Assembly (NCBI RefSeq): GCF_000144915.1 | Contig: NC_014374.1 | Location: 124,001 to 188,000 of the forward strand | From: Acidilobus saccharovorans 345-15 | GTDB taxonomy: Archaea; Thermoproteota; Thermoprotei_A; Sulfolobales; Acidilobaceae | Length of the DNA stretch: 64,000 nucleotides | Reading direction: 5' to 3' | Part shown: in pieces, positions 54,191 to 63,210 of the stretch | Layout of the letters: every line of letters starts with the position of its first letter | Numbering within the stretch: the stretch's first letter is position 1 | The notes under the pieces: generated by a model | What the model saw: only the letters and a program-made list of their open reading frames with translations | Databases searched by the model: none | Told to the model about the DNA's origin: nothing | Position numbers and translations under genes: made by a program

Positions 54191-54778
54191 TCAGGGCTCC
54201 CTGAGAAGGCCGAGCCTCCTGGCCAGGAGCTCCCAGTCAAGGCTGAAGACTATGAGGCCCGCCACGAGGCCCGCGGCCGCCATGAATATTATGATCACGT
54301 ACTCCGGCAGCCTGAATATCATGGACACCTCGCCGGTTATGAAGTAGAGCAGGGAGGTCTCGGCCACGGTCTTCAGAAGCTTGGCGGCCGCGGCTATGAG
54401 GCCCATGAGCTTGGCCCTCATGCCCGAGGCGCCCCCCACCATGTAGACAAAGTCGTCAAGTGGGAGCACCGGCACCACCGCCGCGAAGAACGCCAACAGG
54501 TAGGCCCACCTGCTGTTGGAGTACCTTGCCAGGAACCTCACGTTCCTGTTCCTCCTCAGGACCCCCTTAAGGCCCACCCCGAGGTAATACATGACGACCT
54601 TGGCTATCGCCGCCCCGAGGGATGCTGCAAGCACCGGGGGCCAGAAGCCCAGGCCCCCATACTTTATCTCAAGCAGGACGACGGTGACATAGGGAGGGGC
54701 CCCAAGGGGGATTAGGTTGAACAGCAGGGCCACAGAGAAGCTGGCGGCTATTACTGCGAGGGCGCTCACGTGCGTCAC
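54191..54778 (-). CDS. VTT/DedA-like membrane protein
   Basis: A 195-residue protein with four or five membrane segments. LGAPPYVTVVLLEIKYGGLGFWPPVLAASLGAAIAKVVMYYLGVG near residues 25-65 and VVPVLPLDDFVYMVGGASGM near 105-125 resemble the VTT/SNARE-associated domain re-entrant loops. Homologues act as lipid scramblases or transport proteins in other organisms; here the role is open. It overlaps the aEF1-beta gene by four bases and is the last gene of a four-gene unit. Confidence 0.6.
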   Translation of the reverse strand: MTHVSALAVIAASFSVALLFNLIPLGAPPYVTVVLLEIKYGGLGFWPPVLAASLGAAIAKVVMYYLGVGLKGVLRRNRNVRFLARYSNSRWAYLLAFFAAVVPVLPLDDFVYMVGGASGMRAKLMGLIAAAAKLLKTVAETSLLYFITGEVSMIFRLPEYVIIIFMAAAGLVAGLIVFSLDWELLARRLGLLREP

Positions 54779-62137: not shown

Positions 62138-63210
62138 TTAGCTAGCCCCTTTGCTCTTCCACATGCGCGGGTAGATGCCGCGCGGCATCACTATGCGGGT
62201 GGGCTTGACGGCTATGCCCTTATCGCGCTCCATGACTTCTTTGGCATCCATGACAGCCTCACCTAAGCCTACCAGCTCTCCCTTAAGCGTTAGCATGGCA
62301 ACCCTGCCGCCTGCCTTTACATCAGGCGTGAGCAGCGATATCCCCGGCACGGCGAGGGGGGCACCGTTTACGACGCTCTCAACCGCGCTGTCCCTGAGCA
62401 CAACCTTAGGTAGCTCGCACGTAATGACCTCCCCTGGGAGCACCGCCCTCCTGAGGTAGTCATCCTTACCCTCCTCCCTGAAGCGATACACGGCCTCCGA
62501 GAGCTCCTGCAGAGTGACTAAATTGTGGTCCTCGTCGAAGGGGCCCGTCTTAATTCTCCTCAGCTCCCTCATGTGCGCGCCGACTCCCAGGACAAGCCCC
62601 ATGTCCCAGCACAGCTTCCTCATATAGGTCCCTGGGTCCGACTCTACCCTAAGCAGGGCCAGCCTGCCCCTGACCTCAAGCACCTCAAGCGAGAATATTC
62701 TCCTGGTGCGCAGGGCCCTCTTGACGTTGCTCCTAACGGGCGGCCTCTGATATATCGTGCCCGTGAACTCCTCCGCCACCTCCCTGAGCTTCTTCTCGCT
62801 TACATCGCCATGAAGTTGCATGACGCAGACGTACGCCTTCCTCGAGTGCACCACAGAGCCCATTATCTTGGTCATATGGTCAAGGGCTACGGGCAGGACG
62901 CCTGTTACTTTGGGATTTCCCCGCCCAGGCCACGCGGCCTGAGCCCAAGGGTCCCTCCATGCCCCGCCCGCTTAACCCCCAGGAGCCTCTTAACCCAGGC
63001 CGTGACTTCATGGCTTGTAGGCCCGGGAGGCTTGTCTATGTTAACCACCCCATAACTTATGTACTCCTCTGCGGGCCTCTCGGTTGGTATAACACCGTAG
63101 TCGCCCGAGGTGTCCTCTGGCATCTTCTCAAGCCACTGGGCCCTGTGGCCGCAGAAGTCGTTGACGAAGTTCAAAAACTCCCTTCCACGCCTTGTGAGCT
63201 CAGAGCTCAA
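62138..63210 (-). CDS. cbf5: tRNA/rRNA pseudouridine synthase Cbf5 (split by an intron)
   Basis: The gene is read as two exons on the minus strand, 63210-62946 and 62916-62138, joined to 347 codons. Exon 1 (TTG start) ends ...KRAGHGGTL and exon 2 continues [13 protein letters not shown], so the catalytic Asp loop GHGGTLDP is only complete after removing 29 bases (62917-62945). Without removal the frame ends at once. The rest ([42 protein letters not shown] and a C-terminal PUA domain) is standard Cbf5, the H/ACA-guided pseudouridine synthase. It follows the eL14 gene by 15 bases. Confidence 0.95.
62917..62945 (-). other. 29-nt bulge-helix-bulge intron in cbf5 pre-mRNA
   Basis: On the RNA, the outer helix GGGA/UCCC is followed by a 3-nt bulge AAA, a 4-bp helix CCCU/GGGG, a 3-nt bulge UGG, and the 9-bp inner helix GCUCAGGCC/GGCCUGGGC with loop GCGU. 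This is the canonical symmetrical motif of the archaeal splicing endonuclease. Cutting after the second base of each bulge removes exactly 29 bases and restores Thr-Leu-Asp-Pro. Introns in cbf5 are known from other Crenarchaeota; this fits them. Confidence 0.95.

Follow-up and report, generated by a model that had tools for sequence, protein, structure and literature searches.

cbf5 is interrupted by a 29-nt segment

The window analyzed here, a 64-kb stretch of the Acidilobus saccharovorans 345-15 genome, carries cbf5 on its minus strand as two neighboring reading frames separated by a short insertion (Table 1). Cbf5 is the pseudouridine synthase of H/ACA RNPs. When the 29 nt at 62917-62945 (GGCUCAGGCCGCGUGGCCUGGGCGGGGAA) were deleted, the frame at 62905-63210 and the frame ending at 62138 fused into one stop-free frame, encoding a 347-aa protein that contains GHGGTLDPKVTG. 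The spliced protein scored 442 bits against the NCBIfam Cbf5 profile, passing the curated cut-off of 242, and its alignment to solved archaeal Cbf5 (3lwo/2hvy) was free of gaps at the junction, with GTLDP and its catalytic Asp retained in the alignment to 3lwo. The original prediction that removal of this segment restores Cbf5 was therefore correct to the base.

The insertion is in phase 1 and splits the catalytic Asp codon (G/AT) at 62946/62916. It had also been claimed that the two frames miss only the Asp-Pro pair of the motif; this holds for Asp, but not for Pro, whose codon lies whole in exon 2, where the frame itself reads N-P-K-V-T-G. The TTG start of exon 1 was assigned by the ORF caller and is putative.

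Table 1. Features of the interrupted cbf5 gene, in transcript order (window coordinates)
Feature	Position	Strand	Evidence
cbf5 exon 1: N-terminus and DKCLD domain, through GHGGTL and Asp base 1	62946..63210	-	
BHB exon-1 half: outer GGGA and central CCCU (codons GGG ACC CTn)	62948..62955	-	fold
Bulge 1, UG/G; predicted 5' cut 62946/62945	62945..62947	-	fold and protein limits
cbf5 intron, 29 nt, BHB, phase 1, in catalytic Asp codon	62917..62945	-	protein continuity, MFE fold, shared position and compensatory changes in 74 relatives
Intron inner helix, 9 bp, GCGU loop	62923..62944	-	fold and covariation
Central helix, intron half GGGG	62919..62922	-	fold
Bulge 2, AA/A; predicted 3' cut 62917/62916	62916..62918	-	fold and protein limits
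Outer helix, exon-2 half UCCC	62912..62915	-	fold
cbf5 exon 2: Asp bases 2-3, remaining TruB-like catalytic domain, PUA domain	62138..62916	-	

The junction folds into a canonical bulge-helix-bulge

Unconstrained folding of the RNA at 62905-62960 produced a canonical bulge-helix-bulge (BHB) as the minimum free energy (MFE) structure, at -28.9 kcal/mol, with 71% of the ensemble and a z-score of -2.6. Its outer helix (GGGA/UCCC), central helix (CCCU/GGGG), bulges (UGG and AAA), and 9-bp inner helix are identical to those described in the original prediction, which had proposed folding as a check. Cutting each 3-nt bulge after its second base gives exactly the 29-nt limits derived from the protein, which confirms the earlier claim that the two lines of evidence define the same segment.

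We scanned both strands of the 64 kb for strict BHB motifs, with a 4-bp outer helix, 3-nt bulges, a 4-bp central helix, and an inner helix of at least 6 bp. The scan returned 11 places, and an inner helix of at least 9 bp was found only at the cbf5 intron. When the intron was shuffled with dinucleotide composition preserved and the exons fixed, 0 of 5000 shuffles retained the 4-bp central and 9-bp inner helices; the cbf5 BHB is not a product of chance. Positions 54527-54576 (minus strand, 50 nt, 8-bp inner helix) were considered as a second BHB intron and rejected as probably a chance match, because they lie within an uninterrupted 195-aa frame. Rfam matches in the window were limited to two tRNAs and the 16S and 23S rRNAs.

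The intron and its structure are conserved across the order

Spliced Cbf5 was used to search 98 genomes, consisting of the organism's own and those from the same genus, family, and order, and the junction was readable at 89 cbf5 loci, the window's own counted. An intron was present at the identical base in 74 of the 89, with lengths of 13-57 nt and a median of 31.5 nt; those in two further genomes of the genus measure 29 and 30 nt. The original prediction had treated the short size as special, but 29 nt lies close to the median for these 74 and is typical rather than short, since 29-bp cbf5 introns are listed for Acidilobus aceticus and Caldisphaera lagunensis in Table 1 of Yokobori et al. 2009 (PMC2738675). 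Intron lengths fell about equally into the three frames (24/26/24, n = 74), as expected for a segment that is removed. Because the lengths cover all three frames, an in-frame insertion that is simply read through was ruled out.

Across the 74 introns, the central helix was paired in 99.3% of cases at the predicted positions and in at most 74% when the positions were slid by 1-3, while the inner helix averaged 6.4 bp at the predicted positions and at most 0.45 when slid. A set of six 29-nt introns, drawn from two genera of the family, had changes on both sides at six of the nine inner pairs, and 15 double-changed cells were counted compared to 5.8 expected (0 of 500 shuffles; at most 4 when slid). 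Since pairing is conserved and inner pairs change on both sides, these comparisons indicate that the BHB structure of the cbf5 intron is under selection.

The shortest introns, of 13 nt, occur at two loci from one genus (L075 and L076, in G095 and G088), where the central and outer helices are full and the inner helix is nearly absent. They are smaller than the smallest intron, of 16 bp, in the 2009 table (PMC2738675).

This conservation bears on two other ways to account for the split gene. One is that the sequence or its assembly is wrong, or that cbf5 is a frameshifted pseudogene, and a likely one-base frameshift in rtcB of the same assembly (described below) would be in keeping with it. 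However, 74 relatives carry an insertion at this very base and its pairing is compensated, and both cbf5 exons are conserved as far as the C-terminus; judged by sequence comparison, this vanishingly improbable reading is already refuted by the order-wide conservation of insertion and structure. The other is that ribosomes cross the strong hairpin between the two frames by translational bypassing or programmed frameshifting, rather than the RNA being spliced, as hairpin bypass is known elsewhere. What is conserved, however, is an exon-intron BHB with 3-nt bulges rather than a take-off/landing pair, the limits read from the protein follow exactly from the BHB cut rule, and homologous introns are spliced in cDNA of other species (PMC2738675). 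We therefore consider bypassing very unlikely, and an intron removed by RNA splicing remains our preferred reading.

The intron constrains codon choice and is absent from several lineages

On its exon side, the central helix consists of codons for Gly-Thr-Leu. ACCCT was found in 68/74 intron-bearing genes compared to 4/15 intronless cbf5 genes (Fisher p = 3e-7, kinship ignored), and purine-ending Thr codons were seen in none of the 74 but in seven of the 15. A control Thr codon downstream (in KVTG) was free in intron-bearing and intronless genes alike. These sequence patterns suggest that intron-bearing cbf5 genes restrict the Thr-Leu codon pair while intronless genes leave it free, an observation that is new but modest.

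On a tree of 89 spliced Cbf5 proteins, built from exon residues only, intron absence required at least five changes, all forced by well-supported branches. The intron was absent from all five sampled genomes in each of two families (f7 and f6) and from both sampled members of one genus in a third (g27 in f5). Absence also arose twice inside a genus of the window's family (g6), in G008 and in G034 plus G041 (intronless loci L006, L009, and L014), whereas the other three members (L012, L045, and L060) kept introns of 36-40 nt. At least five changes, with two in a single genus of this family, is likewise a new but modest result; the published minimum for cbf5 intron loss was two lineages (PMC2738675).

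In the intronless genes the Asp codon is uninterrupted and one chain is encoded, which argues against cbf5 being two cistrons for two half-proteins, even though the ORF finder reported two frames and the second has an internal ATG at 62875. Neither half has an active site, as the catalytic Asp codon itself is divided between them, and the probability of two functional halves is close to nil. A single spliced Cbf5 chain is the reading we retain.

Interpretation of the five changes as losses, not gains, rests on a published argument for ancestral presence (PMC2738675) and on the shared position. We lean toward a history in which the intron was lost precisely at least five times in the sampled order, twice in one genus, with a minimum size of 13 nt and with the ACC CTn constraint released upon loss. 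If this is true, the clade would provide a test bed for archaeal mRNA intron loss.

The genome encodes both subunits of a splicing endonuclease

The genome's sole EndA above cut-off is a 187-aa protein (G000:C1:38771-39163) whose best PDB matches were the Aeropyrum pernix catalytic chains 3p1z_B/3ajv_B, with the Tyr, His, and Lys of the triad aligned; it is the catalytic subunit. A second, divergent EndA-like protein of 113 aa, encoded near 217530-217760 (G000:C1; L092:1423-1764), had its best matches in 3p1z_A/3ajv_A (E 2e-27), the partner chains in the A. pernix enzyme. Like Cbf5, both EndA subunits have close relatives with solved structures. With its two subunits matching the A. pernix heterotetramer, the genome encodes a hetero-oligomeric EndA, a type that has been linked to mRNA introns (PMC2738675). 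The 113-aa structural subunit aligns to the A. pernix chains (170-190 aa) over their C-terminal part; its own N-terminal part appears to be missing, and its length is near that of the Pyrobaculum chain 2zyz_A (116 aa).

The gene for the likely splicing ligase, rtcB (G000:C1:939883-941186; L093, L094), lies outside the window and is present as two overlapping frames. A one-base frameshift interrupts it in this assembly just before the HTGSRG motif (CTCTCGAAGG versus CTCTTCGAGG in a congener), and this counts against the explanation given below. Because three congeners carry an unbroken rtcB, an assembly or sequencing error or a recent mutation is more probable than a missing ligase, and a BHB is not needed to explain the split.

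Splicing of cbf5 and its relation to known introns

We conclude, with a probability of about 0.98, that the segment at 62917-62945 is the crenarchaeal cbf5 pre-mRNA intron already described in Desulfurococcales and Sulfolobales, for which cutting by EndA and ligation of the exons are predicted. This reading connects the split gene, its conserved and covarying BHB, and the two EndA subunit genes with cutting and joining steps that, by analogy to published homologues, would occur in A. saccharovorans. The cbf5 transcript would fold into the canonical BHB, hetero-oligomeric EndA would cleave both bulges behind their second base, and a ligase, RtcB according to the established pathway, would seal the exon ends and so make the catalytic Asp codon G/AU whole again. 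An unspliced message is predicted to yield only a 101-aa dead-end product that stops at 62905 and lacks the catalytic Asp; production of active Cbf5 should therefore depend on splicing. Dependence of cbf5 on the splicing endonuclease can thus be soundly inferred, and a ligase would be needed as well.

Such an intron would tie production of the rRNA-modifying Cbf5 to tRNA-splicing enzymes. Its significance is mainly one of annotation, as automatic gene callers split cbf5, a problem of which the 2009 paper warned (PMC2738675). The comparative set of 74 genes with and 15 without the intron offers a slightly richer view than that paper (PMC2738675) of repeated loss and of coding constraint at the RNA level.

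Yokobori et al. 2009 described the cbf5 intron in Desulfurococcales and Sulfolobales, located it after the first letter of the catalytic Asp codon, and attributed its removal to EndA acting on a BHB-like structure, with cuts between the second and third base of each bulge and splicing proven by cDNA in several species (PMC2738675). The cbf5 introns of A. pernix and Sulfolobus spp. were first reported in 2002, as cited in that paper (PMC2738675). The original prediction of a BHB intron in cbf5 belonging to an established class was borne out, as the A. saccharovorans intron is a homologue of the published one at the same codon position (PMC2738675); nothing in its type, position, or size is new, as it was described in the same archaeal group in 2002-2009.

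The closest counterparts are the introns of A. aceticus and C. lagunensis, which share the gene, position, 29-bp size, and cut rule. They belong to other species, and comparison with the published descriptions revealed no structural or positional difference. The A. pernix and Sulfolobus introns share the position and the EndA-dependent BHB mechanism, and splicing was experimentally shown there, but their sizes differ (38 nt in A. pernix and 22-31 nt in Sulfolobus, compared to 29 nt in A. saccharovorans). Archaeal tRNA and rRNA introns have the endonuclease motif in common with the cbf5 intron, although their host RNA is a tRNA or rRNA rather than an mRNA. Finally, many cbf5 introns form a relaxed BHB, whereas that of A. 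saccharovorans is fully canonical.
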